Assembly (NCBI GenBank): GCA_949317995.1
Contig: OX439052.1
Location: forward strand, 43,334,599-43,398,598
DNA length: 64,000 bases
Source of the DNA: Acholoe squamosa
Lineage: Eukaryota > Annelida > Polychaeta > Phyllodocida > Polynoidae
Direction of reading: 5' to 3'
Shown here: in pieces, positions 1,241 to 59,515 of the stretch
Layout: every line of letters starts with the position of its first letter
Numbering within the stretch: position 1 is the stretch's first letter
Translations under genes and position numbers: made by a program
Notes under the pieces: model-generated
Databases searched by the model: none
Seen by the model: only the letters and a program-made list of their open reading frames with translations
Told to the model about the DNA's origin: nothing

Positions 1241-1416
1241 TGATACATAGGCATGATACATGAATGAGTTAGTGACCCTACAGGGTTGATACACTCCCCA
1301 AGGGTCGGCATGATGCACTCATAAAGTGCTAGCGAGTTCCCTCACAGGCACTGCATTGGTGTATCATGACGACCCAAGAACGATTATGGGGCATCGTGCG
1401 GCCCTGAGAAGGTTAA
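1241..1416 (+). repeat. palTTAA element, degenerate copy
   Basis: Modules C and A are recognisable: ACCCTACAGGG-type inverted repeat, GTCGGCATGATGCACTC, and GTATCATGACGACC. It ends in GCGGCCCTGAGAAGG followed by TTAA at 1413-1416. That TTAA is shared with the start of the next copy, so two elements abut head to tail. Confidence 0.7.
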
Positions 1417-2147
1417 CCCTTTAATGGACGATAATGCATTAATGCATCATGCCCATTGGTCGTACTGATGCTGCATTAATGCATCATGCCCATTGGTCGT
1501 ACTGATGCTGCATTAATGCATCATGCCCATTGGTCGTACTGATGCTGCATTAATGCATCATGCCCGTTGGTCGTACTGATGCTGCATTAATGCATCATGC
1601 CCATTGGTCGTACTGATGATGCATTAATGCATCACGCCCATTGGTCGTACTGATAATGCATTAATGCATCACGCCCATTGGTCGTACTGATAATGCATTA
1701 ATGCATCACGCCCATTGGTCGTACTGATAATGCATTAATGCATCACGCCCATTGGTCGCACTGATAATGCATTAATGCATCACGCCCATTGGTCGTACTG
1801 ATAATGCATTAATGCATCACGCCCGTTGGTCGTACTGATAATGCATTAATGCATCACGCCCGTTGGTCGTACTGATGATGCATTAATGCATCATGCCCGT
1901 TGGTCGTACTGATAATGCATTAATGCATCACGCCCATTGGTCGCACTGATAGTGCATTAATGCATCACGCCCATTGGTCGTACTGATAATGCATTAATGC
2001 ATCACGCCCATTGGTCGTACTGATGCCCATTGGTCGTACTGATAATGCATTAATGCATCATGTCAATTGGTCGTCATGATGCTCCAATGAAGTGCTGTCG
2101 AGACTGCTCGCCAGCACTTCATTGGAGCATCATGCCGAGGGGGGATT
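1413..2147 (+). repeat. palTTAA element expanded by a 37-bp array
   Basis: The copy starts TTAACCCTTTAATGGACGAT, runs into the tandem array at 1434-2048, and resumes with a module B hairpin (CCAATGAAGTGCTGTCGAG at 2073 onward and its complement to about 2130). The right terminus is lost, so this is a palTTAA copy whose module A was amplified in place. Confidence 0.75.
1434..2048 (+). repeat. 37-bp tandem array (about 16-17 units) from palTTAA module A
   Basis: The unit contains GCATTAATGCATCATGCCC and ATTGGTCGTACTGAT. Successive GGTCG starts at 1458 and 1495 give the period. Variants (CATGCCC to CACGCCC, CCATTGG to CCGTTGG, GTAC to GCAC) occur in blocks, which suggests recent spread by unequal exchange. 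One truncated unit lies near 2025-2040. Confidence 0.9.
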
Positions 2148-3200: not shown

Positions 3201-3517
3201 TAGTGCTGCATTCATGTATCATGCTGACCAAAAGGGCCAGAATGATGCACCAATGAAGTGCTAGCGCATCAATTCATGATGCACCAATGAAGTCCTAGCG
3301 TATCAATTCATGATGCACCAATGAAGTCCTAGCGCGTCAATTCATGATGCACCAATGAAGTGCTAGGACGTCAATTCATGATGCACCAATGAAGTGCAAG
3401 CGCATCAATTCATGATGCACCAATGAAGTGCTAGAGCATCAATTCATGATGCACCAATGAAGGGCTAAAGCATCATGACAATACAGAAACAAGGAACCTT
3501 TAGGCACGTAAGGGTTA
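3201..3517 (+). repeat. palTTAA element expanded by a 34-bp array
   Basis: Begins with module D-like GCATTCATGTATCATGCTGACC. It contains an array at 3243-3470 and ends AAGGGTTAA with TTAA at 3514-3517. The array unit contains GATGCACCAATGAAGTGCTA and GCGCATCAATTCAT, i.e. the left half of module B repeated seven times. Confidence 0.75.
3243..3470 (+). repeat. 34-bp tandem array (7 units) from palTTAA module B
   Basis: Seven nearly identical units of CATGATGCACCAATGAAG followed by TSCTAGCGYRTCAATT. In contrast to the usual hairpin, only one arm was amplified, so the array itself is not palindromic. Confidence 0.9.
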
Positions 3518-6867: not shown

Positions 6868-6889
6868 CTAGACGTCAAAATAGAAGAGA

Positions 6890-8218: not shown

Positions 8219-8241
8219 GTGTGTGTGTGGGGGGGGGGTGG
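8219..8241. repeat. (TG)n and poly-G tract
   Basis: TGTGTGTGTG followed by a run of G. Simple sequence. Confidence 0.85.
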
Positions 8242-8655: not shown

Positions 8656-8671
8656 CCTGCTCTGCCTGCCC

Positions 8672-8702
8672 ACCCCCCCCCCCCCCCACACACACATACA
8701 CC
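8672..8702. repeat. Poly-C and (CA)n tract
   Basis: A long C run followed by CACACACACA. Simple sequence. Confidence 0.9.
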
Positions 8703-8771
8703 CAACTTCTTATACAGGGAGGCAGATCTTATACAGACGAGACCCTCGTCCTGGTATCATCTGCCTGTATT

Positions 8772-9172
8772 TTAACCCTTCATAAAGCATCACGCCCATT
8801 GGTCATCATCATGCTTTAATGGGGCCCTGGCGAGCAAATCGGCATGGCCACATTAATCCATCATGATGACCCCATGTGATAATCTTCCGAGGATCGGCTG
8901 GGCTTCCCTAGCCCACTTAAAAGGGTCTATATCTCCTCTTTTCTATCCCCTCGGATGTGTGTGGTGCACACATGCGCGGGCACCGACACATTCCTCTGTG
9001 AAATTGTGTAATGTCGTTCTCGCCATGAATATGACCTTAGCTGTCGAAATGGCGTCAAACACCTATTACTCACTCACTCACTCCGAGGATCTGCATGATA
9101 AACCAAGGAGGTGCTGGCAAGCAGACTCACCAGCACATCAATGGATGCCCATTTATGGTTGTAAGGACAGTC
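8772..9172 (+). repeat. palTTAA element interrupted by a retroposon
   Basis: Starts TTAACCCTTCATAAAGCATC. It carries module A and module D pieces to about 8885 and continues after 9091 with GGTGCTGGCAAGCAGACTC and ACCAGCACATCAATGG (module B). The gap is a SINE-like insertion with a target duplication. Confidence 0.65.
8896..9081 (+). mobile_element. SINE-like retroposon, type A tail, with 10-bp target duplication
   Basis: Head GGGCTTCCCTAGCCCACTTA, middle GTGGTGCACACATGCGCGGG, 3' part GCCATGAATATGACCTTAGC and GGCGTCAAACACC, ending in (ACTC)n. It is flanked by TCCGAGGATC at 8886-8895 and 9082-9091, an exact direct repeat. Length 186 bp. No tRNA-type A/B boxes recognised, so the class of the head is open. 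Confidence 0.85.
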
Positions 9173-9535
9173 AGAGCACCACCTGAAACCGGAAGTCTCC
9201 TCCCCCAGTACTCAACCTTGATCTTTAAGTTTATTCTGGTTTTGTACAGATATGAAAAGTCACCAAAAGTGTCCAAGGTGGCATAATTAGTATCAAATGA
9301 GAGACCCCGACGTCAGAAATGCAGATGATACTGTCGATGATTTTGATTTCTTATCTTGTATTGATAATAGATATATTGGGCCTACATTAAGTGGGGTCAG
9401 GAATACAATCTTGATTATATTTTATAAATTCCTTCACAGAGGATAACCATGGTGCACCGATCTTGCTGCATCGACATGATGCAAACCCCATGTTGCTTCC
9501 CACTCATTGTGCACTTTGGATCAGTTTCTTTTTCT
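9173..9535. other. No gene recognised
   Basis: Unique-looking AT-rich sequence. No support for coding. Confidence 0.4.
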
Positions 9536-9635
9536 TTCTTGTTAGACCCCAAAATTTGCTCAGAAATAAGGGGTGGGACCCCTCCTTTTAGATCCCCCCC
9601 TTCTTTTAAAAATCCTAGATCCGCTACAATAAAAG
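9536..9635 (-). mobile_element. MITE of the CAGTGGCGGAT family, truncated copy
   Basis: Reverse complement reads GTAGCGGATCTAGGATTTTT with the family's GGAGGGG and GAGCAAATTTTGGGG blocks. One end only. Confidence 0.55.
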
Positions 9636-9655
9636 TACCAAAGACTTGATTCATA

Positions 9656-9875
9656 CGCTGTAAAAGAATGTCGTTGAAATAATGGGGCAATGCTCTCAAA
9701 GTTTCCAGAGATCCATTGTTGTTTTAATGGAGATTGCTTGTATAATTATATTTGTGTACCACCGTACCGGGGGCTTCTTGTAAAAACTCCACTGGTTCAG
9801 TGCTATACAATTGCAGTGGTCCTTTGTTTTAAAAGGATCCCTGATAGATTCAACAGTTATATTCAACACGTATAG
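9656..9875 (-). mobile_element. MITE-220 family (CACTGTAAA ends), copy 1
   Basis: In reverse complement it carries the family landmarks GTTGAATCTATCAGGGATCC, ACCACTGCAATTGT and CAATGGATCTCTGG. Family members are about 220 bp, end in CACTGTAAAAAATAAC-like sequence on both sides, and recur at 19.2, 26.6, 39.3, 46.8 (nested pair), 47.4 and 50.2 kb. Confidence 0.7.
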
Positions 9876-10025
9876 AACATGTTTTGAGCATCACATGGCA
9901 ATTAAAGGGTTAATCTTCCTACAGATTTAGGCGGGTGTCATACCTCAAGGGTTAATTCTAACCAACCCCATTGAACTCTAGTGGTGCACTCACGGTTCGT
10001 ACTTAAGATTAGTTTGAAAACGCCC

Positions 10026-10056
10026 ACAAAAATCGATAACCATTATCGATTTTTGT
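10026..10056. repeat. Perfect 14-bp inverted repeat with 3-nt centre
   Basis: ACAAAAATCGATAA, CCA, then TTATCGATTTTTGT. The arms contain ATCGATAA, close to the DRE-like TATCGATA word. It could be a cruciform or a factor site; nothing else supports a function. Confidence 0.8.
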
Positions 10057-10413
10057 TTCCTCTTGGCGTTCCCAAATGGAGGCGTCTCCCTTCACAATTA
10101 GGCCATAGGAACGCTGGACACTATTCACAGACATTTAGATTTCATTGACATTGTTCTTTCTAACGCCACCAGGGGGAAGGAGGGAAGTCAGACGCGTCTC
10201 AGTCCCAGCCTCGTTCTGGGCTGTTAATTTGAAAAGAGGAAATTGGTTGGTCAAAAATAAAAGAGAATATTGAAAGGAAGTTTTTTTTTTGTTTGGTTCT
10301 TTTTAAGGGGCTATTGTTCATAAGACACGAATGGGTTTTGTGAGAAGAAGATGATCACGGAGCGTATTGAGAGGGCGAAGGGGTGGCTGGGTGTAGGGTG
10401 TGTTTAAAACCAT
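10057..10413. other. No gene or repeat recognised
   Basis: Unique-looking sequence. A short poly-T precedes TTTTTTTTTGTTTGG near 10280. Confidence 0.4.
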
Positions 10414-10800
10414 TTAACCATTTAAGGGTCACTGATGCAGGAGTGCATAATTGGTCGTCATGATGCTCCAATGAAGTGCTGGCGAGCAGTCTTGCCAACA
10501 CTTCATTGATGCATCATGATGACCAATGGGCATGATGCAATAATGCATCAGTGGCCCCTTAAGGGGTCAACGGTTTATAGCCAATTAATCAAGCCTTCAC
10601 TGCCTTATTCACTGAGGCACTCTGACACCATTGATAGCTGAAGTGAGGAATGGAAAAAGTTGTGTAAAAGAATAGTATATATTCACTAATCATTCATTCA
10701 TTCCTTCTGGCTGCCTGGTGCATAGTTATAGCACTATCAAGTAAATCGCCAAGAGATCATACCATTTAAATATATCATGCTGGTCATACGAGATTGATTC
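10414..10800 (+). repeat. Third, partial copy of the 28.4/43.9-kb duplicated segment
   Basis: Begins as a palTTAA element (10414-10570). It continues into the non-palTTAA flank GGTTTATAGCCAATTAATC, CACTGCCTTATTCACTGAGG and CTGAAGTGAGGAATGGAAAA. These words match 28985-29265 on the plus strand and 44580-44850 on the minus strand. A retroposon insertion at 10809 cuts it off. Confidence 0.8.
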
Positions 10801-10808
10801 ATTGGTGC

Positions 10809-10987
10809 GGGCTTCCCTAGCCCACTTAAAAGGGTCTATGTCTCCTCTTTCCTATCCCCTCAGGATGTGTGTGGTGCACATATGCGCGGGCACTGACACA
10901 TTCCTCTGTTAAATTATCAACCAGTGAAGCACGGGATAGCCACTTAGTGCCGCTAAAGTGCTGTAAAACACAAATCAATCAATCAAT
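10809..10987 (+). mobile_element. SINE-like retroposon, type B tail, with 13-14-bp target duplication
   Basis: The first ~105 bp match the type A element (GGGCTTCCCTAGCCCACTTA, GTGGTGCACATATGCGCGGG, GACACATTCCTCTGT). The remainder is different: ATCAACCAGTGAAGCACGGG, GCCGCTAAAGTGCTGTAAAA, ending (AATC)n. Flanks GATTCATTGGTGC at 10796-10808 and 10988-11000 are identical. The clean duplication shows that head and type B tail moved as one unit. Confidence 0.85.
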
Positions 10988-11248
10988 GATTCATTGGTGC
11001 ATCATGATGACCAATGGGCATGGTACATTAATCGTGCATCATGAACACTGCACAGCATGATGCACCAATGTAGTCCTTGTGAGTCTGCTCACTTCATTGG
11101 TGCATCTCCTGCTGACTTTCTGGAAGTGTCTCTAATTTGCAGCATCAGAATGGTGCATCCGTGAATGCAGCCTTGGCGAGTTACTCACCAGGACTGCATT
11201 CATGCAGTATAAGAACCAAAGAGCTTGATGCATTAAAGCACTCCCAGC
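10988..11248 (+). repeat. palTTAA-derived fragments
   Basis: TGCATCATGATGACCAATGG, a module B remnant (11060-11106), then a module D hairpin GAATGCAGCCTTGGCGAG...CCAGGACTGCATTC at about 11165-11210. Confidence 0.65.
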
Positions 11249-11317
11249 CTTTTAAAGGCTAAAAGATTATTTTTACCCTGTGCCCAGCAACACAGGCTGA
11301 AACAACATAGAATACTA

Positions 11318-11458
11318 GGCTGTGTAGCCCTGGCGAGTTATTCATCAGGGCTACATTCATGCATCCTTTTTGAACCTAAGGGGTTGATACACTACTTGAA
11401 GGTCGGCATGATGCACTAATGAAGTACAGACTCTGGAGCATTTGATCAGTACATCGTG
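11318..11458 (+). repeat. palTTAA fragment with module D hairpin
   Basis: GTAGCCCTGGCGAGTTATTC pairs with CATCAGGGCTACATTCATGC; module C remnants and GGTCGGCATGATGCACTAAT follow. Confidence 0.65.
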
Positions 11459-11513
11459 ACCACCTTTAGTAGCATACTATAGACCCATGTAGTGAAAAGT
11501 ACTACCGTAAACC

Positions 11514-12268
11514 CCATGTACAAGCTGCACCCATGTACAAGCTGCACCCATGTACAAGCTGCACCCATGTACAAGCTGCACCCATGTACAAGCTGCACCC
11601 ATGTACAAGCTGCACCCATGTACAAGCTGCACCCATGTACAACCTGCACCCATGTACAACCTGCACCCATGTACAACCTGCACCCATGTACAAGCTGCAC
11701 CCATGTACAAGCTGCACCCATGTACAAGCTGCATCCATGTACAAGCTGCATCCATGTACAAGCTGCATCCATGTATAAGCTGCACCTGTGTACAAGCTGC
11801 ACCTGTGTACAAGCTGCACCCGTGTATAAGCTGCACCTGTGTACAAGCTGCACCCGTGTACAAGCTGCACCTGTGTATAAGCTGCACCCGTGTATAAGCT
11901 GCACCTGTGTACAAGCTGCACCCGTGTACAAGCTGCACCTGTGTATAAGCTGCACCCGTGTATAAGCTGTACCCGTGTACAACCTGCACCCATGTACAAC
12001 CTGCACCTGTGTATAAGCTGCACCCGTGTATAAGCTGCACCCATGTATAAGCTGCAGCCGTGTTCAAGCTGCACCCGTGTACAAGCTGCACCTGTGTACA
12101 AGCTGCACCCGTGTACAAGCTGCACCCGTGTACAAGCTGCACCCGTGTACAAGCTGCACCCATGTACAAGCTGCACCCGTGTACAAGCCACACCCGTGTA
12201 CAAGCCACACCCGTGTACAAGCCGCACCCACGTATAAGCTGCACCCATGTACAAGCTGCACCCATGAA
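11514..12268 (+). repeat. 17-bp minisatellite, about 44 units
   Basis: The unit is CTGCACCCATGTACAAG with blocks of variants (CTGTGTACAAG, CCGTGTATAAG, ATCCATG). Because 17 is not a multiple of three and the unit lacks stops in most frames, both strands show long overlapping open frames (up to 262 codons) that are artefacts. The unit resembles the TATAAGCTGCACC motif of the flanking AAGCCGCACC family, suggesting the array grew from that repeat. Confidence 0.9.
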
Positions 12269-13720: not shown

Positions 13721-13813
13721 AGTAACAGAGATGGTTGTCGTGAAGAGAGGTGGAGTGGGAAAGTATGCAGGCAATAAATAAAGGGGAATCTGTCAGTGTT
13801 ACTATATCTATAA

Positions 13814-14043
13814 TCCTGTAAGGGCTGCTGATGCAGGAGTGCATCATGCCCATTGGTTGTCATGATGCACCAATGAAGTGCTGGAGAGACTGCTCGCCAG
13901 CACTTCATTGGAGCATCATGCCGACCCTCCAGGATTGTTTTTATTTTGCCCCCGCAGGGGCGAGTTACTTGCCAGGGCTGCATCATGACAACCAATGGAT
14001 TGGGCATGATGCAATAATGCATTGTCAGCCTTTAAAGAATTAA
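13814..14043 (+). repeat. palTTAA element, nearly complete
   Basis: CCTGTAAGGGCTGCTGATGC start; perfect module B hairpin with CCAATGAAGTGCTGGAGAG and CTCGCCAGCACTTCATTGG; altered module C; module D half; right end TCAGCCTTTAAAGAA-TTAA (14040-14043). Confidence 0.8.
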
Positions 14044-17290: not shown

Positions 17291-17306
17291 TCTGTGCGTC
17301 CCTCTG

Positions 17307-17595
17307 GCCCTTTAAAGGCCGCTAATGCAGGAGTGCATCATGCTAATTGGTCGTCATGATGCACTCATTACCAACATTGAGGCATCAATGATGATGCTCT
17401 GGGGGCTGGGGGTGTATTAAAGCCGCATGACGCTCAAATCATGCCGACCCTCCAGGAGTTTATGTATCAACCCTGGAGGGTCGGCATGACGCTCCGATGA
17501 AGTGCTGGCGAGTACTCTAGCCAGCACTTCATTGGTGCATCATGCTAACCAATGGACATGATGCATTAATGCATCAGTGGGCATTAAAGGGTTAA
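17307..17595 (+). repeat. palTTAA element, near full length
   Basis: CCCTTTAAAGGCCGCTAATG start. Module C hairpin at about 17441-17489 is almost perfect (CATGCCGACCCTCCAGG / CCTGGAGGGTCGGCATG). Module B hairpin at 17498-17540. Right end CATCAGTGGGCATTAAAGGG-TTAA (17592-17595). Confidence 0.85.
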
Positions 17596-18170
17596 AGATT
17601 GGTGCTTTAATGCATCATGTCCATTTGTCCTGGTGAGTTACTCAGCGGTTCTGGTGAGTTACTCAGCGGTTCTGGTGAGTAACTCAGCGGTTCTGGTGAG
17701 TAACTCAGCGGTTCTGGTGAGTAACTCAGCGGTTCTGGTGAGTAACTCAGCGGTTCTGGTGAGTAACTCAGCGGTTCTGGTGAGTAACTCAGCGGTTCTG
17801 GTGAGTAACTCAGCGGTTCTGGTGAGTAACTCAGCGGTTCTGGTGAGTAACTCAGCGGTTCTGGTGAGTAACTCAGCGGTTCTGGTGAGTAACTCAGCGG
17901 TTCTGGTGAGTAACTCAGCGGTTCTGGTGAGTAACTCAGCTGTTCTGGTGAGTTACTCAGCGGTTCTGGTGAGTAACTCAGCGGTTCTGGTGAGTTACTC
18001 AGCGGTTCTGGTGAGTTACTCAGCGGTTCTGCATCATGCTGAGCCTACAGAGTCAATTGCACCTACTCAGCATGATGCTCCAATGAAGTATTGATGAGCA
18101 GACTCACCAGCACTTCATTGGTGCATCATGACAACCACTGTACATGATCCATTAATGCACCTGTACCACT
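17592..18170 (+). repeat. palTTAA element expanded by a 21-bp array
   Basis: Starts at the TTAA shared with the preceding copy. The array at 17631-18030 replaces module D. A module B hairpin (18090-18125) and module A remnant follow. Confidence 0.75.
17631..18030 (+). repeat. 21-bp tandem array (19 units) from module D
   Basis: The unit is GGTTCTGGTGAGTAACTCAGC. The period is a multiple of three, so the plus strand shows a 153-codon frame of seven-residue repeats (SNSAVLV). That is expected from the array and is not evidence of a protein. Confidence 0.95.
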
Positions 18171-18269: not shown

Positions 18270-18531
18270 TTAACCCTTTAAGGACCTAGATGCATTAATG
18301 CATCTTGCCCATTAGTCGGCATGATACACCAATGAAATGCTGGCAAGACTGCTCGCCAGCCCATAATTGGATCATCATGCCGACCATGCGGGAGTTTATG
18401 TATCGACCCCGTAGGGTCGGCGTGATGCTACAATGAAGTGATAACAAGACTGCTAGCCAGCACTTCATTAGTGCATCATGACGACAAATGGGCATAATGC
18501 ACTCCTGCATCAGTGGCCTTCAAAGGGTTAA
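18270..18531 (+). repeat. palTTAA element, complete reference copy
   Basis: TTAA at 18270-18273 and 18528-18531 enclose CCCTTTAAGGACC and GATGCA at the left, and TGCATCAGTGGCCTTCAAAG plus GG at the right (inverted). Interior in order: module A, module B hairpin, module C hairpin (ACCATGCGGGAGT / ACCCCGTAGGGT), second module B hairpin, inverted module A. TTAA targets and CCCTTT ends fit the piggyBac group (inference). Confidence 0.85.
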
Positions 18532-18562: not shown

Positions 18563-18697
18563 TTAACACTTCAAGAGCTGCTGATGCTGGAGTGCATCAT
18601 GCCGTTAGTCGAAATGATGCACCAATCATTTTCGATGAAGTGCTGACCAGTCTGCATTGGAGCATCGTGTCTGCACTAGCCGCCCTTAAAGCGTTAA
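18563..18697 (+). repeat. palTTAA element, short copy
   Basis: TTAA 18563-18566 and TTAA 18694-18697 enclose modules A and B only; ends are ACACTTCAAGAGCTGC and GCCGCCCTTAAAGCG. Confidence 0.8.
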
Positions 18698-20915: not shown

Positions 20916-21101
20916 CCTTCCCTAGCCCACTTAAAAGGGTCTACTTCTCCTCTTTCCTATCCCCTCGGGATGTGTGTGGTGCACATATGCGCGGGCACTG
21001 ACACATTCCTCTGTGAAATTGTGTAATGTAGTTCTCGCCATGAATATAACCTTAGCTGTCGAAATGGCGTTAAACATCTATTACTCACTCACTCACTCAC
21101 T
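20916..21101 (+). mobile_element. SINE-like retroposon, type A tail
   Basis: CTTCCCTAGCCCACTTAAAA through GCCATGAATATAACCTTAGC to GGCGTTAAACATC and a (ACTC)n tail. It lacks the GGG of the other heads, and I could not find a target duplication. Confidence 0.8.
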
Positions 21102-21749: not shown

Positions 21750-22113
21750 TTAAGCCCTTTAACAGTCGATAATGCATTAATGCATCATGCCCATTGGTCG
21801 TCATGATGCATGAATGCAGACCTGGGGAGTAACTCACTGGGGAGTAACTCACTGGGGAGTAACTCACTGGGGAGTAACTCACTGGGGAGTAACTCACTGG
21901 GGAGTAACTCACTGGGAGTAACTCACTGGGAATAACTCACTGGGGAGTAACTCACTGGGGAGTAACTCACTGGGAGTAACTCACTGGGAGTAACTCACTG
22001 GGCTACATCTGTACGACCCTACAGGTTTGATTCACTCCTCAAAGGTCGTCAATGAAGTGCTGTCAAGCAGACCCGCCAGCACTTCATTGGTACATCATGG
22101 GCTTAATGCACTA
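21750..22113 (+). repeat. palTTAA element expanded by a 15-bp array
   Basis: TTAAGCCCTTTAACAGTCGA start with module A. The array at 21824-22002 replaces module D. Module C and a module B hairpin (AAGTGCTGTCAAGCAGAC / CGCCAGCACTTCATTGG) follow. Confidence 0.75.
21824..22002 (+). repeat. 15-bp tandem array (about 12 units) from module D
   Basis: The unit is GGGGAGTAACTCACT with some 14-bp units lacking one G. Independent of the 21-bp array at 17.6 kb although both derive from the same hairpin arm. Confidence 0.95.
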
Positions 22114-23734: not shown

Positions 23735-24199
23735 CTACTTGCCAGCACTGCACTGGGCCATCATGCCAACCTGTTGCGTTCGCAGGGTTCCCACTGGTCT
23801 GTTAAAAGTCAGTTAAACCTATTTTTCTTTTAAGTTCAGTTAAAAATGGTATTTTGACTAATTTAGGGAGGTGATTGTCAGAATTTCACGCAAATTTGCA
23901 AAATTTCTTGAATATCCTCGCTCGAGAGTGGATGGAATTTTTCGTGAGCCTTATAAATCATCCAATATTTGGTCAGTTTTATGTCAATAAATGTCAGGTA
24001 AAAGTCAGTTAAAACCATGACCCATTAACAGTGGGAACCCTGATTTGTATCAGGCCTGTCAACAGGGTCAGAATTCTGGTTTAATGCAGCACTGGTAAGC
24101 TACTCACCAGGGCTGCATTTATGTATCATAGCACCACTGGTGCATCATGACAACAAATGGGTTGATGCACTCCTGCATGAGCGGTCCTTAAAGGGTTAA
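23735..24199 (+). repeat. palTTAA element interrupted by a 260-bp MITE
   Basis: Module B half and GGGCCATCATGCCAACCTGT before 23783. After 24042 come module D (GCAGCACTGGTAAGCTACTC / ACCAGGGCTGC) and the right end GCGGTCCTTAAAGGG-TTAA (24196-24199). Confidence 0.7.
23783..24042. mobile_element. 260-bp MITE with perfect CAGGGTTCCCACTG ends
   Basis: CAGGGTTCCCACTG (23783-23796) and CAGTGGGAACCCTG (24029-24042) are exact complements. AAAGTCAGTTAAA occurs near both ends as a subterminal repeat. CAGGG termini are common in hAT-type elements, but I see no 8-bp duplication. Confidence 0.8.
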
Positions 24200-24371
24200 A
24201 CACAGAGAGAAGATTAAGCAGTGCCAATATGGGATTGGAAGATACTTATACCTCCCACTCACCTACACACTCTGATAGGGAGCTCAGTCTACGCATACAA
24301 GTCTTTAATAGAGTCAAGCTCCCAGTAGAGGCAACACTCTCATAGCACATTCTTTACCCTCGATATGGGCA

Positions 24372-24460
24372 GCATGGCGCATTAAAGTAATGCATTGGTG
24401 CATCATGTCATGATGCATAAATGAAGTGCTGGCGAGTCTGCTCACCAGCACCTCGTAGGA
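24372..24460 (+). repeat. palTTAA fragment (module B hairpin)
   Basis: GCATCATGTCATGATGCAT then AAATGAAGTGCTGGCGAG and CTCACCAGCACCTCGTAGG. Confidence 0.65.
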
Positions 24461-24603
24461 GAATTCGAAACAAGATGTTGCCTTTGATTTACAGGGTTGC
24501 AAATAATGGCTGGAAGCAAGACTATAATAGTGCCTTGTTGCCACCTTGCCGTCTCGTCACAGAGTATTATTGCCAGGTTCTGCAGTACATCAGTAGTATA
24601 TAG

Positions 24604-26136
24604 GGGCAAACTCAGCGCATAGGAACAGCTACTGAAATCAATTTGACCTACTTACGAACTAGAAGTGACCTAGTTTTGAGACTGGAAGTGACCATATATG
24701 GGGATGTGACCTACTTTCTCAAGCTCTGATTGGCTGAGAGCTATGACGTCATCACGTGATGATCACGGGATCACAACAAAAACATAAACAAAAACAGACT
24801 GACCACGTGGTCGGCATGGTCGGCCACTTGTTGTTAGTAAGTTACATGTAATATCCATGTAACTTTTAGGGTTTAGGGGAAAGTATAACCAATTTTTTAG
24901 CGCTGATTGCTTGTTGGATACTTTATACATGATCTAATTTCTTAAGCTTCGCTTGCTTGTTGACATTTGTGTAATACCTATGGAATTTTAGGCCAGGTAT
25001 TAAAATAACACATGGTACCGATTCAAGTTATGTTTGCTATAGCAGGTTCAAACGATGCCTGAGCCAGAAAGTAGACAGAGTTGTTTTTCACTGAAGCTAA
25101 AAGCCCTGAAAGGTAGCCTTCCTTGAAATTTAGCTCGAATGAATAATGATTTTTTTTCGCCTTCACCGGGAGTTATGGGTTTGACCCCAAGCGTGTCTAT
25201 GACAAAGTTAACAATTATTTGCTATGTACAACACTGAATCCGGTTTTAATCTATGTATTTGTTCACAAAATGAAAGAAATGTACCATTTTACTAAATGTT
25301 GCAAAAATTTTACAAAATTTACCAAAATGTCATGAAAATCATTACAAAATTTTTACGTTTACACACAAGATTTTGCTATGTACAACTTTTGCTTAAACTG
25401 ATTGACAAAAGGAGTGTTTGCCTTTCTTTATCAAAGGTGCAGTGTTGTTTTGAAGGAAACAATCTCTAAAATTTAAATTGCGAGGAATAAATGCATTTGA
25501 AGGATGATGTTCAGGACAATACAGCCACAGTTGAAAAAGCTTACCTTGTTCTACACCACCCCTTATGTCTGAAATAAAAAAAAAAACTTTTCTCTTTTGT
25601 GAGAAGTGGATAAGCTCAGAGGTAGTGAAGCAGGAGTCATGATCAGCTGATCAGTGAGTGAACCTTGCACCATCAATGCTCACAGTGGCAACTCGGTGGT
25701 CAGTTTAAGTGGGGGTAATACATACTGGGGAAAAGGGCCTAAGATTTACAGGTAAACTAGTAGGTAGGTAGGTAAAATAGTGTAGGGTGAGTAAAGGAGG
25801 AAGCAAGTAGTAAGGAACATCCCTACCTACCTACCCACCACCCTGTTGTTAATACATTTTCTGGTGTGACGACCATGTGGTCAGTTTTGTTTTTGTTTAC
25901 GTTTTCTGCTGTGATTGCATGATCATCACATGATGACGTCATAGCTCTCAGCAAAAAAAAAACTAGGTCAAATGCCCATATATGGTCATGGGCATGGTCA
26001 CACGTGATGACGTCATAGCTCTCAGCCAATCAGAGCTTGATAAAGTAGGTCACATGCCCATATATGGTCACTTCCGGTCTCAAAACTAGGCCACTTCAAA
26101 TCGATTTCAGTAGCTCTTCCTATGCGCTGAGGTTGC

Positions 26137-26138
<2 letters not shown>
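24604..26138. mobile_element. 1.5-kb element with long (about 220-bp) inverted repeats
   Basis: Left end GGGCAAACTCAGCGCATAGG is matched by right-end CCTATGCGCTGAGGTTGCCC, and the inversion continues through CTCTGATTGGCTGAGAGC, TGACGTCATCACGTG and the GACCATATATGGG / ACCACGTGGTC block to about 24850 and 25850. The right arm holds an internal duplication (TGATGACGTCATAGCTCTCA at about 25931 and 26006). The inner kilobase is non-coding. Probably a non-autonomous DNA transposon carrying CRE and E-box motifs in each arm. Confidence 0.75.
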
Positions 26139-26216
<78 letters not shown>

Positions 26217-26217
26217 T
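26136..26217. repeat. (TA)n microsatellite
   Basis: About 40 TA units immediately against the right end of the 24.6-kb element, possibly expanded from its TA-rich target. Confidence 0.95.
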
Positions 26218-26282
26218 ACTTGCATCGTATTAGAAGTGTTACACAGTCTGAGTGAGAGAGAAGCTGGTGGGTGTATATTGAC

Positions 26283-26563
26283 TCAGATATAATCATCTCC
26301 TCTCAGTTCTAACACTCAAGGGCTTCCCTTACCAATCTTAAAGGGGCACTGGCACTGCACATTAACAGCATGGGTACCGATTCAAACAGCGATCATAAAA
26401 TCGCGGGAACCAGCGGAAAAATCGCGGCGCCCTGATTGGTCAAGGAGTGGTCACGTGACATTTTAATGCGGGCATGCATTACGGTGCCAGGGCCCCTTTA
26501 AAAGGATCCTATTCTTATCTTTTATGTTCTCTTGGTTTGTATGTCTGGTGACCATACATGGGC
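26283..26563 (+). mobile_element. Old SINE-like copy interrupted by two MITEs
   Basis: CATCTCCTCTCAGTTCTAAC, GGGCTTCCCTTACCAATCTT, then after the TTAA-MITE AAAGGATCCTATTCTTATC and GTCTGGTGACCATACATGGG. It is colinear with 26787-26990 and with the head of the younger type A copies. A MITE-220 copy begins at 26564. Confidence 0.55.
26342..26497. mobile_element. 156-bp MITE with TTAA target duplication
   Basis: TTAA at 26338-26341 and 26498-26501 flank AGGGGCACTGGCACTGCA and its imperfect complement TGCATTACGGTGCCAGGG followed by CCCCT. The interior carries AAAATCGCGGGAACC, a second near-copy AAAATCGCGGCGCCC, and a CCAAT/CACGTG pair (GATTGGTC, GTCACGTGAC). TTAA duplication fits piggyBac-type insertion. 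Confidence 0.8.
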
Positions 26564-26786
26564 ACACTGTAAGGATTAACTGTTGCATTTACCAGGGATC
26601 CTTGTAAAACTGAACAGCGTACCACTGTAATTGTTTTGCAGTGAAACAGTGCAGTTTTTACAATGAAGCCCCAGATGCCAGTGCAGTTGTACAAGGAATC
26701 TGTGAAAATAATGACGGCACTCTAGCAACTTTGGGACAAGGATTCCACCATTATTTCGACGACTTATTTTTTTTTTACAGTGCAGG
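26564..26786 (+). mobile_element. MITE-220 family, copy 3 (best preserved)
   Basis: CACTGTAAGGATTAACTGTTG at the left, TTTTTTTTTACAGTGCAGG at the right; interior has CCAGGGATCCTTGTAAAACT, ACAATGAAGCCCCAGATG and TTGGGACAAGGATTCCACC. The open frames on both strands are shared with no other copy. Confidence 0.8.
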
Positions 26787-26990
26787 TACATCATCTCCTC
26801 CCAGTTGTAACACCCTAGGTTTCCCATTACAATCTTCAAAGGATCCTTATCTCATCTTTTATGTCCACCTTGTGTGTCTGATGCACACACCTGGGCATCA
26901 ATAATTCGATCCATCAAATGATTTCTAATGTAGTTTTCTCCCCATGAATGTGATATTAGCTGTTGAAATTCTCAAAATGATATTGAACAG
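26787..26990 (+). mobile_element. Old SINE-like copy, type A
   Basis: TTTCCCATTACAATCTTCAA, CTCATCTTTTATGTCCACC, GATGCACACACCTGGGCATC, CCATGAATGTGATATTAGC. Diverged from the younger copies and without the (ACTC)n tail. Confidence 0.6.
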
Positions 26991-28386
26991 CCGTAAGTCG
27001 GTTTAACACCCAAAAGAAGGTTTGTCTCAGTCAAATTAGTTCTCAAATTTACTCTTTTTGGCCCAGGTCCTCCTGGGTCATTGGTGGCGCCTTTTTAGCC
27101 AAATCCAGAAATTTGTAATCACCAACTTTAGGGTGTAATCATGTAGTGATATACTGTATTTTTACATATTTTTCAAAAGCCAAAGGAAAGTTTCAGATCT
27201 CATCTAGGAGACAACATTTTGTCCTTCATGGTGAGTGATGTCTATGGGTGTGATAGATTTTGGCAATTGAATGAAGACATGGGCTCCTATTGGAATCAGC
27301 AGATTAAGACTTTATTTTTCAGCATAACAAATGCTATAGCACCTACGGCTGAAGGGTTATATGTATTGTCGGAAAGTGAACAGTCTCCATATATGGAAAC
27401 CATTCATTAGCAGACTGTTCATGTAGTTATATGTTTCATCACAAGTTGTCAGGAAGGTCTATAAGAGCACCTGTCATATACCTTATTTTTCAGTCAGCAG
27501 GTGGCATGTGATGTCTGTTTAGCCAATGGCGGTCTGCATTTTTGTGACCAGTGTCATAACACTTCTCTTGATTTTTGGCAAGGAAGTGTCGTACCACCTG
27601 GGCATTGGTACAATGGTTTACTGGGATGGAAGTTTGATCAGAATGGAAGACTTTAAGTGGGGATTTCTTCTACAAAATATGGGAAAATAATTAGTGAGTC
27701 CCCTACAGTATGTTCATAACTGCTCTACAGCAGACAACCTATTTTAATTTCATCTTTTTTTCATATTTGGTGGAAGACCCTGGGCCATTAGTGCTCTATA
27801 GCAATCATAAAATCTTTTCCCTCTAAAATTGAATGGCCCTTGCTAGCGTCAGTCCAATTTATTAATGTGGCCTGATAGCCTGAGGGTATGTGTATAATTA
27901 GACAGTAGGAATATTATAATTACATTTCAAATATGAAAAGAAGAGGTGGAAGTCAGTCGGAAATCTCAGACCTAGTTCCTACTAATGCATTTTCTCACAA
28001 AGCCCCGGTTATTAACTTTCAACTTTTCTTTGAATGATGTGCACCCTGCCTGCATTCATGCATTATGACAGTCAAAACGCATAATACACTAAAATAGTAT
28101 TTTTTGCTTAAAGGTTGACGTTAATCATTTTGGAATAACAGATGAACAGTTTTATTGACTTAACTTGATTCAAATATAATACATTCTCAGGAATTGTCAC
28201 AAAGTATCCATAGTGTCAAAGATTTACTAGCTACTTTCACTCAATACTTGTATAAAACACAGTCCTTGAAAGGCCAGCTTTCATTAAGCACTAGCCTCCT
28301 GGTTGGTAAAAGTTATTTGCTGGGCCCCTCGACCCAATTAGAGGAAATTAATGACAATCCCTCTACTCTCCTCACTTGGGGCACTC
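26991..28386. other. 1.4 kb without recognised gene
   Basis: Unique-looking. Contains an inverted pair TGAACAGTCT / AGACTGTTCA around 27378-27421 and a small palTTAA remnant (28035-28085, GCCTGCATTCATGCATTATG). Frames at 27219 (63 codons) and 28194 (82 codons) show no domain. Confidence 0.4.
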
Positions 28387-28636
28387 TTAACCCTCTAAGG
28401 CCCGCTGATGCATTAGTGCATCATGACCATTGGTCGTCATGATGCAGCAGTGAAGTGCTGGCAAAATTGCTCACCAGCACCTCATTAGAGCATCATGCCA
28501 ATCCTCTGGAGGAATATCAGTCCTGTAGGGCCGGCATGATGCATGAATGTAGCCCTGGCAAGTTACTCGACAGGGCTGCATTCATGCTTCATGCTAACAA
28601 ATGGGCATGATGCATCAGCGGCCCTTAAAGAATTAA
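28387..28636 (+). repeat. palTTAA element, complete with TTAA both sides
   Basis: TTAA 28387-28390 and 28633-28636. Order of modules: A, B, C, D (GCATGATGCATGAATGTAGC / GGGCTGCATTCATGCTTC), inverted A. Ends CCCTCTAAGGCCCGCTGATG and CATCAGCGGCCCTTAAAGAA. Confidence 0.85.
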
Positions 28637-28746: not shown

Positions 28747-28987
28747 TTAACCCTTTAAAGGCCGCTGGTGCAGGAGTGCATCAAGCCTATTGGTGGTCAT
28801 GATGCTCCAATGAAGTCCTGGGAGATTGCTTGCCAGCACTTCATTGGAGCATCATGCTAACCCTATGGGTTTGAAACACAAAATCCTGGAGGGTCGTCAT
28901 GAGCAGTCTCGCAAGCACTTCATCGATGCATCATGATGACCAATGGGCATGATGCAATAATGCATTAGTGGCCCCTTAAGGGGTCAA
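28747..28987 (+). repeat. palTTAA element, complete
   Basis: TTAA 28747-28750 and degenerate TCAA 28984-28987. Modules A, B, C, partial B, inverted A; right end GTGGCCCCTTAAGGGG. Confidence 0.8.
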
Positions 28988-29365: not shown

Positions 29366-29611
29366 TCAACCCTTAAAGGGCCGCTAATTCAGGAATGCCT
29401 CATGCCTATTGGTCAGTATGATGCACCAATGAAACAGACTCGTGCTTCATTGGTGAATCATGCTAACCCGGGAGTGTATCAACCACATGGTGGCATGGTG
29501 CATAAATGTAGCCTCTGCGAGTTACTCTCCAGGGCAGCATTCATGCATCTTACCGACCAATGGGCATGAAGCACTGCTATATTAGTGGCCCACAAAGGTT
29601 TAAAGGGTTAA
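29366..29611 (+). repeat. palTTAA element, complete
   Basis: TCAA 29366-29369 and TTAA 29608-29611. Module B is shortened; module D (GTAGCCTCTGCGAGTTACTC / CCAGGGCAGCATTC) present; right end GGCCCACAAAGGTTTAAAGG. Confidence 0.8.
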
Positions 29612-41256: not shown

Positions 41257-41363
41257 ATCCGGATACAAAACATGATGCACATTATCTTCTATGTGAATCT
41301 GAGGCTCCTGTGCCTTACAGAACCAGCCCGAAGTCTGGGTGTGTCTTACAGGTGGAGTATCAT

Positions 41364-41567
41364 CCCTTTAAAGGCCGCTGATGCAGGAGTGCATCATGCC
41401 CATTGGTCGTCATGGTGCAGCAATGAAGTGCTGGCAAGACTACTTGCCAGCACTTTATTGCAGCATCATGCCGACCCTACAGGGTTGATGCAGACAATCC
41501 TGGAGGGTCGGCATGATGCTCCAATGTACATCATGCATTAATGCATCAGCGATCCTTAAAGGGTTAA
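41364..41567 (+). repeat. palTTAA element, complete
   Basis: CCCTTTAAAGGCCGCTGATG start; module B hairpin GCAATGAAGTGCTGGCAAG / CTTGCCAGCACTTTATTGC; module C hairpin; right end CATCAGCGATCCTTAAAGGG-TTAA (41564-41567). Confidence 0.85.
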
Positions 41568-43529: not shown

Positions 43530-43680
43530 AATAAAACCTGCGTCTAAGCCACACCCATGCATAACCCATACACTAAGTTCTTAGTTTTGCCATAACCCAT
43601 AACCCATGCCCTCAGGAGTTTTCTATAGCTCACACCTGTGCTCTGAAATGTCCCAATTCCTTAGTCTGTATAGCCTATAT
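43530..43680 (-). repeat. AAGCCGCACCCTGA repeat family copy
   Basis: CTAAGCCACACCCATGCATA, then three variants of CATAACCCATA and CTCACACCTGTGCTCTGAAA. Diverged. Confidence 0.5.
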
Positions 43681-43681
43681 A

Positions 43682-43917
43682 ACCCTTCAAAGGCTGCTAA
43701 TGCCCATTGTTCGTCATGATGCACCAATGAAGTGCTGGCATGACTGCTCATGGAGCATCATGCTGACCCTCCAGGAGTATGTGTGTTAGGCTCGTAGGGT
43801 CGGCATGATGGCCCAATTAAGTGCTGGCGAGCAGTCTCCCCAGCACTTCATTGGTGCGACCAATGGGCATGATGCATTAATGCATTAGCGGCCCTTCAAA
43901 AGTAACACTCTGGATAC
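43682..43917 (+). repeat. palTTAA element, near complete
   Basis: CCCTTCAAAGGCTGCTAATG start, partial module B, module C hairpin, full module B (AAGTGCTGGCGAGCAG / CTCCCCAGCACTTCATTGG), right end GCATTAGCGGCCCTTCAAAAG. Confidence 0.75.
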
Positions 43918-45455
43918 ACCAAAATACTCTACACTGAGATCTGTATGAGCAAGTTCCATTGTGATAATATTAGAAACACACAACACTTTGATGGACAGAA
44001 ATGCCCAATTGATTTAAATGACAAACCTATGACATCAAAACAGAAGAGGATATCATTTCCCTACTCTGCCCCAGTCACTTCTCTGTACACAACCACCAAG
44101 TTAACTAATTTATTGGTCTACTAGATATCTAATTAACTCTAGACAAGCCTGCAGGATCCAAAAAAGTTGGATTCTGAGGGTAAGCTGCTCTCAACCTTCC
44201 TCTAAAGTCTCACCACCTTTCAAATCCTTCAATTGGAAGGAAATTAATCTCTCCCACAAGGATATTATTTAACCCTTTAAACCTTTGTGGGCCACTAATA
44301 TAGCAGTGCTTCATGCCCATTGGTCGGTAAGATGTATGTGGTTGATACACTCGTGGGTTAGCATGATGCACCAATGAAGCACTAGTGAGTCTGTTTCATT
44401 GGTGCATTATCCTGACCAATAGGCATGAGGCATTCCTGAATTAGCGGCCCTTTAAGGGTTGACACTTTGAAAGATCTATTTATGTCTTAGGTTGATTTTT
44501 CATTAATTTAATATTGGCGATAAACGCGCTAAAGCCATACTAGTGTATCAAACCTACCGAGTGAGTTTGAATCAATCCTGCAGGACCAGCATGATATAAA
44601 TGGTATGATTTCTTGGCGATTTACTCGCTAGCGCTACAACTACTTAAGCATCATGACAACCAAAGGGCATGATGCATTAGAGCACCAGGCAGTCAGAAGG
44701 AATGAATGAAAAATAAAAACAAGATTTCATCAGTTGAATACTATTCTTTTACACAACATTTTCCATTCCTCCCTTCAGCCGTCAATGGCTTCAGAGTGCC
44801 TCAGTGAATAAGGCAGTGAAGGTTAGATTAATTGGCTATAAACCGTTGACCCCTTAAGGGGCCACTAATGCATTATTGCATCATGCCCATTGGTCATCAT
44901 GATGCATCAATGAAGTGCTTGCGAGACTACTCATGACGACCCTCCAGGACTTTGTGTTTCAAACCCATAGGGTTAGCATGATGCTCCAATGAAGTGCTGG
45001 CAAGCAATCTCCCAGGACTTCATTGGAGCATCATGACCACCAATAGGCTTGATGCACTCCTGCACCAGCGGCCTTTAAATGGTTAATTAAGGTAGGATGA
45101 TCCTATATTCTACCATGCCCTTTAGTCTTCAAGAAGCATGACTGCAGCCCTGGCAAATTACCCACCAGTTCAAATACATTGGGGCACAATTGACCCTTAA
45201 TTCTTTAAGGGCCACTGATGCATTAATGCATCATGCCCATTTGTCAGCATGAAGCATGAAAGCAGCCCTGTCGAGTAACTTGCCAGGGCTACATTCATGC
45301 ATCATGCCGACCCTACAGGACTGATATTCCTCCAGAGGACTGGCATGATTTCCAATGAGGTGCTGGTGAGCAATCTTGCCAGAACTTCATTGATGCATCA
45401 TGACTACCAATGGCCATGATGCATTAATGCATTAGCAGCCCTCCAAAAGATTAGT
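43918..45455 (-). repeat. Right arm of the 1.55-kb inverted duplication
   Basis: Reverse complement is colinear with 28387-29970. TGCCCAATTGATTTAAATGA (44006), CAAATCCTTCAATTGGAAGG (44221), GATTAATTGGCTATAAACCG (44827) and CATTGGGGCACAATTGACCC (45178) match the left-arm landmarks. It contains inverted palTTAA copies 44269-44462, 44846-45086 and 45197-45455. Differences are mostly point changes and small gaps. Confidence 0.85.
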
Positions 45456-51796: not shown

Positions 51797-52038
51797 TTAA
51801 CCATTTAAGGGCTGCTGGTGCATTAATGCATCATGCTCAAGGTGTCATGAGGTATGATTATAGCCCTGGTGAGTAACACGCCAGGCTACATTCATGTATC
51901 AGACCCACCCTATGGGGTCGATACACTCCTGGAGGGTCGGCATGATGCTCCAATGAAGTGCTGGCGAGCACTTGCCAGCACTTCATTGGAGCATCATGAC
52001 GACTACTGGGCATGACGCACTCCTGCGTTTAGCGGCCC
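51797..52038 (+). repeat. palTTAA element, complete left end
   Basis: TTAACCATTTAAGGGCTGCT start; order A, D, C, B with hairpins GCCCTGGTGAGTAACACGC and CAATGAAGTGCTGGCGAGCA / CTTGCCAGCACTTCATTGG; right end TAGCGGCCCTTAAAGG. Confidence 0.8.
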
Positions 52039-53078
52039 TTAAAGGCTTTTATTGACAGATAACACCTACCCGGGGTATCTTACAGATATTTGGCCTTATC
52101 CCCTGGACTACCAGATTCAAATAGATTACAACTTAATTGTAAAATTTTATATTCTATATCTCTCATGTGTCTATTCTTCTATGCACACCGCAAACATTAT
52201 CCTGTTATCCAATTCAAGCGCTGATTTTTTTCTTTTCTTTTCTTTTCATGGTTCAATAGGCCGTCTCTCAGATATCATTTGCTTGTGATCCGTGTGCGCA
52301 TTTAACTTTGAAATTTCAGAAGAGAAAATCGTGAAAATACTAAATCATTTGGGAATATCTAAGTCATAAGCAGACCAAATGTGGTGGAAAACTCTAGTAC
52401 CAGTAATTACGGGGATATTTGGTTGTCAGTATGATACATAGACATGATTATAATATTATCAAGCTTATACCAGGGTAAAGAAACAATAACAGCCAACCAT
52501 ACAACAATACCCTCCCTTGTCTACAATAATTCTTCAAAAGTTTGGCCAAAAATTGTTAGAAACGCGTTTTTGACTCTATCTGAATGCAAAGTAACCACCC
52601 TTTACAAAGATGTGAAAAACAATTACTTAGGCCAATCAAAAGAAATAAAAATCGAAATTCTCATCACTGCACTCTTTTGGAAATCAGTACTCGAGAATTC
52701 TTCTACTATTTGGATTTTTTTATGGCAATGTACTAATAAACGGAGAAAGATATTCCATTCCTGTATCAGGAAGTTAATGAAACCATTTTGACTATTTTAA
52801 GAAGTTACTGATAGCTACTATTTTAGTGCTCTTTTGTTTTTTTACCCACTAATAGCTGCGGTGCATAGATAGAAATAGGGTCTTTCAATACCCATTGGGC
52901 CCTGCCTTACACATGACGTGCACCTTATTCGTGAGAATTAACCACACTGCCGTGTAATATCCTGTGTTCCACTGTCCTATATAGAGTATCCTACAGTATT
53001 ATGTTTTTTGTGGTAGATGTTTTTGGCATAAAATGGCAATATTAACCAAAATAGGACAACCATAGGACCACATATATA
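52039..53078. other. AT-rich segment, no gene recognised
   Basis: A 115-codon frame (52444-52791, +) is the longest non-repetitive one in the window. It encodes a Lys/Asn/Ile-rich peptide with no motif I recognise, and its length is unremarkable in AT-rich DNA. CTTATTCGTGAG near 52925 echoes the AAGCCGCACC family. Confidence 0.4.
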
Positions 53079-56488: not shown

Positions 56489-56751
56489 TTAGCCCTTTAA
56501 GGGGTCGCTATTTCAGGAGTGCATCATGCCCATTGGTCGTCATGATGCACCAATGGACTGTGGTGTATATACTCACCAGCACTTCTATGAGTGCATCATG
56601 TCAACCCTCTGGGCATATAATTATCTATCCTCAAGGGTTAGCATGATGCATGAGTGTAGCCCTGGTGAGTTACTCACCAGGGCTACACTCATGCATCATG
56701 ACGACCAATGGGCATGGTTTATCAATACACTCTTGGTCTTTAAAGGGTTAA
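56489..56751 (+). repeat. palTTAA element with a 59-bp perfect palindrome
   Basis: TTAGCCCTTTAAGGGGTCGC start, modules A, B, C, and an intact module D at 56642-56700, where 29-bp arms pair without a mismatch around one base. Right end GGTCTTTAAAGGG-TTAA (56748-56751). Confidence 0.85.
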
Positions 56752-58234: not shown

Positions 58235-59515
58235 TAAAGGCCACCTACATGTGTATTTATGTATACATGTACACATAAGTATGATGCACTTTTTTAGGAG
58301 TTTTAAGTGGCATGATGAATTGATGCACATTTAAACCTTTATGGATGGCATGATGCATTGATGCACACTTAGACCTTTATGGATAGCATGATGTATTGAT
58401 GCACACTTAACCCCTTAGGGATGTATTGATGCACACTTAACCCTTTATAGATGGCATGATGCATTGATGCACACTTAACCTTTAGGGATAGCATGATGCA
58501 TTGATGCACAATTAAACCTTTATGGATGGCATGATGCATTGGTGCACACTTAGACCTTTATGGATAGCATGATGCATTGATTCACACTTAACCCTTTATA
58601 GATGGCATGATGCATTGATGCACACTTAACCCTTTATAGATGTATTGATGCACACTTAACCCTTTGTAGATTGCATGATGCATCGATGCACTCTTAACCC
58701 TTTATGGATGTATTGATGCACACTTAACCCTTTGTAGATTGCATGATGCATTGATGCACACTTAACCTTTAGGGATAGCATGATGCATTGATGCACAATT
58801 AAACCTTTATGGGTGGCATGATGCATTGGTGCACACTTAGACCTTTATGGAGAGCATGATGCATTGATTCACACTTAACCCTTTATAGATGTATTGATGC
58901 ACACTTAACCCTTTGTAGATTGCATGATGCATCGATGCACTCTTAACCCTTTATGGATGTATTGATGCACACTTAACCCTTTGTAGATTGCATGATGCAT
59001 TGATGCACACTTAACCCTTTATGGATATCATGATGCATTGGTGCACACTTAGACCTTTATGGATAGCATGATGTATTGATGCACACTTAACCCCGTTAGG
59101 GATAGCATGATGCATTGATGCACACTTAACCCTTTATAGATGACATGATGCATTGATGCACACTTAACCCTTCATGAATAGCATGATGCATTGATGCACA
59201 CTTAACCCTTTAGGGATGTATTGATGCACACTTAACCCTTTATAGATGGCATGATGCATTGATGCACACTTAACCCTTGAGGGATGGCATGATGCATTGA
59301 TGCACACTTAACCCTTTATAGATTGCATGATGCATTGATGCACATTTAACCCTTCATGGGTGGCATGATACATTGATTTACACTTAACCCTTTAGGGATG
59401 GCATGATGCATTGGTGCACACTTAACCCTTTGTGGATGGCATGATGCATTGATGCACAATTAACCCTTTATGGGTGACCTGCTACATTGATGCACACTTT
59501 AAGCATTATAATTAA
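58235..59515 (+). repeat. 38-bp tandem array (about 30 units) from palTTAA ends
   Basis: The unit contains GGCATGATGCATTGATGCAC and ACTTAACCCTTTATAGAT. It thus joins a palTTAA module A arm to the CCCTTTA terminus. Some units lack the GCATGATGC half (for example near 58420, 58638, 58703). Higher-order blocks recur, e.g. the pair at 58640-58760 and 58880-59000. Confidence 0.9.

Follow-up and report, generated by a model that had tools for sequence, protein, structure and literature searches.

A real and very abundant family of piggyBac-type MITEs with a strikingly palindromic body is present in the window, the whole stretch of 64,000 nucleotides that was analysed, and its nearest counterparts in kind are the CMITEs and the Tetris-like foldback elements. 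It is highly probable that this is a high-copy, non-autonomous family of the piggyBac superfamily, mobilised in trans at TTAA, with a hairpin interior that then changes in place. Direct support comes from discrete TTAA-bounded units found at many unrelated places and at TTAA inside other copies; mobilisation in trans by a particular transposase is inferred. The TTAA-inserting, piggyBac-like element proposed in the initial annotation is borne out by the TTAA boundaries of the window copies and of 20 copies from the whole genome, by nested insertions, and by resident piggyBac elements.

Element ends and module order in the window

The reference element (18270-18531) has TTAA at each end, termini CCCTTTAAGG and CCTTCAAAGGG, and inverted repeats throughout its interior; as the search seed, it begins with TTAACCCTTTAAGG and ends with CCTTCAAAGGGTTAA. 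TTAA is also present at both ends of 28387-28636 and 18563-18697, confirming what had been reported for all three elements. The end motif TTAACCCTTTAAGGGCC was found 70 times in the window with up to four mismatches and 47 times with up to three, compared with 2 and 0 times in the reversed window, and CCTTTAAAGG with up to one mismatch was found 26 times, compared with a shuffle mean of 2.56. Among 43 aligned window ends (a count that keeps at least five ends repeated through an inverted duplication), TTAA is exact at 24, and the information content is 0.70-1.56 bits per base across TTAA and does not exceed 0.43 over the 20 bases beyond it, where the highest signal is a preference for T at -1 (28 of 43 ends). 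The tip consensus is CCCTTTAAGGGCC, with C, C, C, and T at 34, 39, 36, and 43 of the 43 ends, respectively. The ends thus carry the CC[C/T]T tip that characterises piggyBac-type MITEs (PMC2872659), and in animal piggyBac elements CCCTT is described as the tip motif with the highest conservation (PMC10813416). TTAA target sites, another characteristic of such MITEs, are seen at the boundaries of window and genome copies and at nested insertions.

TTAA duplications are also generated by Kolobok, another TTAA-specific superfamily, which is present in molluscs and other animal phyla, and the family might in principle be a Kolobok MITE. However, Kolobok termini are given as 5'-RR and YY-3' (PMC9587614), and because the element instead starts with CC (34 and 39 of 43 ends at the first two bases), this origin appears very unlikely.

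Four module profiles (A, B, C, and D) that had been refined on the window matched it 229 times, in 60 clusters; in five first-order Markov controls of 64 kb, the only match was a single one to C. The matches span 8,919 of the 64,000 bases (13.9%), and the seed searches merged into 55 intervals, so that the initial estimate of about fifty copies or fragments is a fair one, since some of the clusters are minisatellites of module pieces. Module A consists of the element end and a short palindrome. The linker GCATGATGCA is common to B and D, which are hairpins of ~60 bp, and C is the central hairpin. Two end types were distinguished, A1 (GATGCAGGAGTGCATC, with core CAGGAGTG) and A2 (GATGCATTAATGCATC, with core CATTAATG). 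Wherever cores are typeable, A1 adjoins B, and A2 is located at the opposite end, adjoining D or a second B; with the orientation of C scored, D lies on one constant side of C in most copies that retain both.

Overall, A-B-C-D-A and A-D-C-B-A are one architecture on opposite strands, and the module order is therefore not shuffled. We refer to this B-C-D form as beta and to the B-C-B form as alpha. The differing module orders in the initial annotation are an effect of orientation, and 20 of 20 aligned genome copies, selected as the best matches to a query of the alpha form, read A-B-C-B-A. Shuffling by recombination or repair, which had also been proposed, is rejected as far as order is concerned, as end types and C polarity give one fixed order, while loss, amplification, and probable exchange of modules remain. 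Copies differ in which module (B or D) occupies one slot and in the loss or expansion of modules. A few exceptions to the polarity were found: C is reversed beside D at 34629-34777 and in the B-C-B copies at 17304 and 43679, D adjoins A1 at 24078-24198 (a single case), and 28387-28636 has an A2-like core on the B side too. The remaining B or D hairpins are solitary or located within truncated copies. Representative copies and module-derived arrays are listed in Table 1.

Table 1. Copies of the element and related tandem arrays in the window.
Position	Strand	Feature	Used for
18270..18531	+	Reference element, alpha (A2-B-C-B-A1), TTAA at both ends	Ends, fold, profiles, core typing, genome copies
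18563..18697	+	Short copy, A1-B-A type, TTAA at both ends	Profiles, core typing
10414..10570	+	Short A1-B-A2 copy, probable chimera; matches 28747-28987 in its right half and right flank but not in its left flank	
13810..14043	+	Beta copy, A1-B-C-D-A2	Profiles, core typing
17304..17595	+	Alpha-like copy, C reversed; other sequence in place of left B	
28387..28636	+	B-C-D copy, TTAA at both ends; right A core lacks 8 bp	
28747..28987	+	Alpha copy, A1-B-C-B-A2	Profiles, core typing
29366..29603	+	Beta copy retaining the D hairpin	
44277..44462	-	Duplicate of 29366-29603 lacking 56 bp that contain the D hairpin	
44846..45086	-	Duplicate of 28747-28987	
45197..45451	-	Duplicate of 28387-28636, outer end different	
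41360..41567	+	Alpha copy, one B mostly lost	
43679..43903	+	Alpha-like copy, C reversed, outer ends decayed	
51797..52050	-	Beta copy, + strand reading A2-D-C-B-A1	
56489..56751	+	Beta copy (A1-B-C-D-A)	Query for genome-wide beta search
1413..2138	+	Element start; A core expanded to 37-bp array (16 copies, 1430-2024), then B	
17600..18159	+	Copy with D apex expanded to 21-bp array (19 copies, 17630-18031)	
21750..22110	+	A2-D-C-B copy; D apex expanded to 15-bp array (12 copies, 21822-22002)	
3242..3467	+	34-bp array (6.6 copies) from left half of B	
58308..59499	.	38-bp array (33 copies) resembling element end and A core; weaker match	

Folded as single-stranded DNA, 18270-18531 reaches -73.3 kcal/mol (z = -11.67), a value that none of 200 shuffles equalled. 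Such strong folding fits a reading in which the hairpins are selected as RNA structures, for example as small-RNA precursors, and their spread is secondary. The D hairpin likewise shows 9 double compensatory changes where 4.3 are expected, and only 12 of 1000 shuffles reach 9. However, the corresponding 8 changes in B (4.9 expected) are reached by 90 of 1000 shuffles, one-sided stem changes prevail (113 in B and 89 in D), no Rfam match was found at the gathering threshold, and related copies can beat such shuffles without any selection. Selection on RNA hairpins is thus not supported, although the D result leaves some room for it, and we give this reading only a very small probability.

Genome-wide copies and nested insertions

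The source assembly comprises 1,481,437,319 bases (1.48 Gb) in 63 contigs. The end pattern TTAACCCTTTAAGGGCCGCTGATGCA, with up to two mismatches, occurs 13,070 times in it (6,555 + 6,515), a count of near-exact element ends and not of whole elements, and the backward pattern does not occur. In DNA searches, 40 of 7,127 first-look candidates were scored for the alpha seed and 40 of 1,703 for the beta seed. The initial annotation had suggested building a consensus from genome-wide copies and locating their boundaries, and this gave a 263-bp consensus bounded by TTAA: in an alignment of 20 of the best alpha places, the element is common to all and the flanks are not, and conservation stops at TTAA. 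Copies lacking such a boundary, which would have spoken against the initial reading, were not what this genome-wide comparison showed. By visual reading, the left core is A2-like in 20 of 20 copies and the right core A1-like in 19, with A2 at both ends of the remaining one (L032). Under a strict check, 5 of the 20 fetched copies have exact TTAA at the two edges of the match; in the other 15, TTAA is mutated or shifted on at least one side, or the match ends early.

L037 and L042 are the sole pair among the 20 that share flanks, L042 being a duplicate of L037, and the consensus was built from the 19 loci without L042 together with the window copy. This alpha consensus and its reverse complement share 94% identity; the copies have a mean K2P distance to the consensus of 0.089 and a mean pairwise identity of 86%. 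Its best fold is one long hairpin (-162.4 kcal/mol), and when pairing is limited to 70 bases it folds as a chain of hairpins (-100.2 kcal/mol); foldback and hairpin chain are two descriptions of one sequence. The consensus is non-coding and below the 500 bp that delimit piggyBac-type MITEs. A six-frame Pfam scan of 1-11500, 24000-39000, and 45500-58300 found nothing above the cut-off (one match below it, Lactamase_B, E 0.07), and no match to the transposase domain PF13843 falls within the window among the matches listed genome-wide.

Relatives outside this genome were also sought. Pattern scans of viral contigs returned 9, 2, and 0 stretches and a scan of genome contigs returned 11, none of them convincing, and phage records gave no match. 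We rejected these stretches as relatives and take them as chance because their profile matches, which are short, are limited to the module from which the scan pattern was taken (A for L004, B for loci of the scans that returned 2 and 11 stretches), with none to C or D.

The A2 core contains an internal TTAA, and element ends located at this site, recognised as GGGCATGATGCA directly followed by TTAACCCTTTAAGG (up to two mismatches), were found 49 times genome-wide and not at all with the control. We read 11 loci of this nested type, namely 7 of the 12 in one set (the other 5 being without host flank) and 4 more. In three of them (L113, L126, and L122, with scores of 13, 11, and 10) the insert is followed by TTAA and the outer half of the host, L122 being borderline because its score equals the null 99th percentile of 10. 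The clearest case is L113, in which a beta host carries a 412 bp insert and then continues with TACATTAACAGCCTAAAGGGTTAA. Four loci have a right end without host remainder (L117, L119, L120, and L125), and four have no acceptable right end (L114, L115, L124, and L127); in these eight, the host part and the insert may have moved together later. The nested insert in L126 has the order A-B-C-B-C-B-A. Separately, the one in L113 carries a further insertion of ~150 bp in its C module, with ends AGGGATGAAAGT and ACTTTCATCCCT.

Searches with the joined flanks of 20 window elements yielded no empty site; spanning matches were obtained only for 28747-28987 and its duplicate, and these were to themselves and to the copy at 10414-10570. 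The joined flanks of 12 of the 20 genome copies (those with TTAA near both ends) had no usable match in the retrieved sequence, and those of L032, searched against the genome, found their own two flanks and seven other places on the left side only, with no empty site.

Copies might alternatively have spread by segmental duplication and satellite-like amplification and not by transposition, as an inverted duplication with three copies and the module-derived arrays (both described below) would allow. However, the genome copies have no common flanks beyond TTAA, with the exception of L037/L042, and insertions are nested at TTAA. Because the flanks are unrelated, segmental duplication is refuted as the main route, for which its probability is slighter still than that of the two alternatives above, and stays a minor contributor.

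Among known systems, the CMITEs of Acropora corals are also piggyBac-type MITEs that are non-coding, with TTAA duplications and CCCTTT tips (CCCTTTAAGCCCTA in one family), and they are further described as forming tandem arrays, inserting at TTAA within another element, and sharing their genome with piggyBac transposons (PMC2872659). By contrast, CMITEs are ~100 bp long with a common interior of 75 bases (PMC2872659), whereas the present element is ~263 bp and nearly one palindrome. When 60 bases of the CMITE interior were compared with the window, the consensus, and the fetched loci, the best match was a 13-base word (E 0.04) that is not meaningful; this shared interior is not found here. The PALTTAA-type repeats of Caenorhabditis in Repbase are, by name, likewise palindromic repeats at TTAA. 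A piggyBac MITE forming one large palindrome was not found among the titles and abstract openings listed from the open-access library searched, and searches of that library with four terminal strings gave unrelated titles among the matches listed.

Tetris, a foldback element of Drosophila virilis, resembles the element in being non-autonomous, with modular inverted repeats, rearranged forms, and internal repeats that found satellites, and differs in its inverted repeats of up to 1.7 kb, its 8-10 bp duplications, and its Mutator placement (PMC4079207), the present element being short and TTAA-bound. That the element is a classical Mutator-group foldback sitting at TTAA by chance is the least probable of the alternatives, since its long inverted arms, modular body, and satellite seeding recall Tetris but the 8-10 bp duplications (PMC4079207) are replaced here by a TTAA boundary with nothing common outside.

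Resident piggyBac transposase elements

In the same genome, PF13843 gave 90 matches from 105 candidates, and six families (L051, L052, L055, I, H, and F) yielded readable element ends. The ends of L051, L052, and L055 consist of TTAA followed by CCCATTTAACCCT, CCCATTAGCTCCG, and CCCTCTGAGCCCT, whose inverted partners agree at 13, 11, and 13 of 13 bases, respectively. Family I has TTAACCCATTGAGGGCGG at both ends. The end of family H, TTAACCCCTTAAGGGCGA, is supported by two copies in which homology stops exactly at TTAA and the outer flanks differ, and its candidate other end, TTAACCCTTTATGGGCGA, was seen in a single copy without confirmation by a second. The end of family F, TTAACCTCTTCAGGCCGA, is likewise supported by two copies with a homology boundary at TTAA. 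No end was found for families G and J in the stretches read.

Over the 12 bases behind TTAA, identity to the MITE is 11 for H, 10 for I, 8 for F and for L055, and 7 for L051 and for L052. PiggyBac transposons with ends similar to those of the MITE are present in its genome, with H and I the closest. In addition, H and F have a perfect 20-bp palindrome from base 19, at the position of the MITE's A core. Families H, F, and I thus resemble the MITE in TTAA and CCC tips, and H and F also in the palindrome; they differ in having PF13843 matches and internal tandem repeats, and the sequence of the palindrome is another (GCGTCGACTATAGTCGACGC). The H-end pattern occurs at 21 places (control 0), of which 8 have a PF13843 match at a distance of 2.3-4.6 kb and 13 have none nearby among the matches listed. 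One of these 13, C5:36944760, starts exactly with TTAACCCTTTAAGGGC, the best match to the tip. The search for a transposase with the same ends, which the initial annotation had put forward, was successful in part: elements with PF13843 are present, and one with the exact MITE end (TTAACCCTTTAAGGGCCGC) and its A core was not found among the families read.

A piggyBac-type transposase, supplied in trans, would recognise the CCCTTTAAGGG ends and insert the element into TTAA. By analogy with piggyBac ends, the palindromic core behind each end (GATGCATTAATGCATC or the A1 form) may be the transposase-binding site; a palindromic subterminal motif of piggyBac is described as being bound by two cysteine-rich domains (PMC11707139). 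After insertion, hairpins lying between short direct repeats would be lost, minisatellites would grow from apices and A cores, and copies would act as sites of ectopic exchange.

Two further observations concern repeats in and around these transposons. The 38-bp array type of 58308-59499 also occurs beside two piggyBac transposase loci (L053:27-230, L054:3190-3483, and L067:2777-3115). Families H, F, and G contain internal tandem repeats of ~146 bp, seen as repeated alignment offsets (C14:12907000-12910200 = L093, L090, L105, L092, and L107).

Changes within the hairpin interior and chromosomal placement

An inverted segmental duplication (28398-29967 / 45442-43914), whose two parts are ~14 kb apart, carries three elements and has accumulated 62 substitutions over 1,509 aligned bases (4.1%). 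Its indels number seven, five of them at least 3 bp long. Three of these five are inside elements: one removes 8 bp flanked by ATGCAT repeats from an A core, one affects 4 bp close to the apex of a B hairpin, and one takes out 56 bp with the D hairpin between short CAT repeats (29366-29603 compared with 44277-44462). Slippage across hairpins would be expected to leave such a pattern, although three events are not proof. Among 32 aligned B copies, longer gaps were seen by eye around the apex, in a local alignment that hides losses near the ends.

The window contains eight tandem arrays in which a unit of 15 bp or longer is present in 3 or more copies, counted with sub-arrays merged and excluding two-copy cases and a 2.8-copy array at 40587. 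Four of them grow from modules (1430-2082, 3242-3467, 17630-18031, and 21822-22002), two match modules more weakly (40960-41246 and 58308-59499), and two have no module match (11517-12263 and 59591-61453). The D apex was expanded twice, with a 21-bp unit at 17630 and a 15-bp unit at 21822, and the latter array sits between the left arm of D and a partial right arm. Outside the window, the terminus itself forms arrays with a ~26-bp unit at three places in the genome (C7:76608315-76609656, C12:65669580-65670352, and C16:10417380-10418842). The birth of arrays from such elements is not new in kind, since PMC2872659 cites arrays built from part of a piggyBac MITE. As for the two arrays without a module match, 11517-12263 is a 17 bp minisatellite (44 copies), and 59591-61453 has a 134 bp repeat with a 401-bp higher-order unit.

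Exchange between copies is suggested at two places. The short copy at 10414-10570 is 94% identical to 28747-28987 in its right half and right flank and 81-83% in its left half, with an unrelated left flank; from this comparison it is likely a chimera, the alternative being a boundary at TTAA. Both sides of the segment 43914-45442 carry the same element end with ~13 bp more, suggesting a junction at which homology between elements was used. Modules have probably been exchanged between copies by ectopic events.

On contig C1, the only one for which the list of exact ends is complete, the outer 12.5% at either side of the contig holds 72 of 77 exact ends, compared with 19 expected. Across contigs of known length, 22 of the 35 best alpha copies are in the outer 12.5%, compared with 3 of 21 transposase loci, both lists being selections among the matches listed. 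This concentration of exact ends towards the extremities of C1 contrasts with the mostly internal position of the transposase loci and can be tested genome-wide.

The interest of the family lies in its architecture, its copy number, and the route from hairpin to minisatellite, which join the spread of piggyBac-type MITEs, palindrome instability, and minisatellite birth, subjects usually studied apart. Thousands of ends in one genome offer a natural test of hairpin loss, retention, and conversion to tandem repeats, and the same copies could show whether additional palindromes favour or hinder a piggyBac transposase. A bolder and rather doubtful reading is that the chain of palindromes offers piggyBac transposases a series of binding sites, to which the element would owe its unusual success as their parasite; each copy would also act as a local mutator whose hairpin apices repeatedly give rise to new minisatellites, and the best-kept copies would gather near chromosome ends.

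The window also contains a dispersed repeat of ~180 bp, four copies of which (8895-9083, 10807-10915, 20917-21098, and 53088-53270) are 93-96% alike, with a fifth (63506-63672) at about 77-79%.
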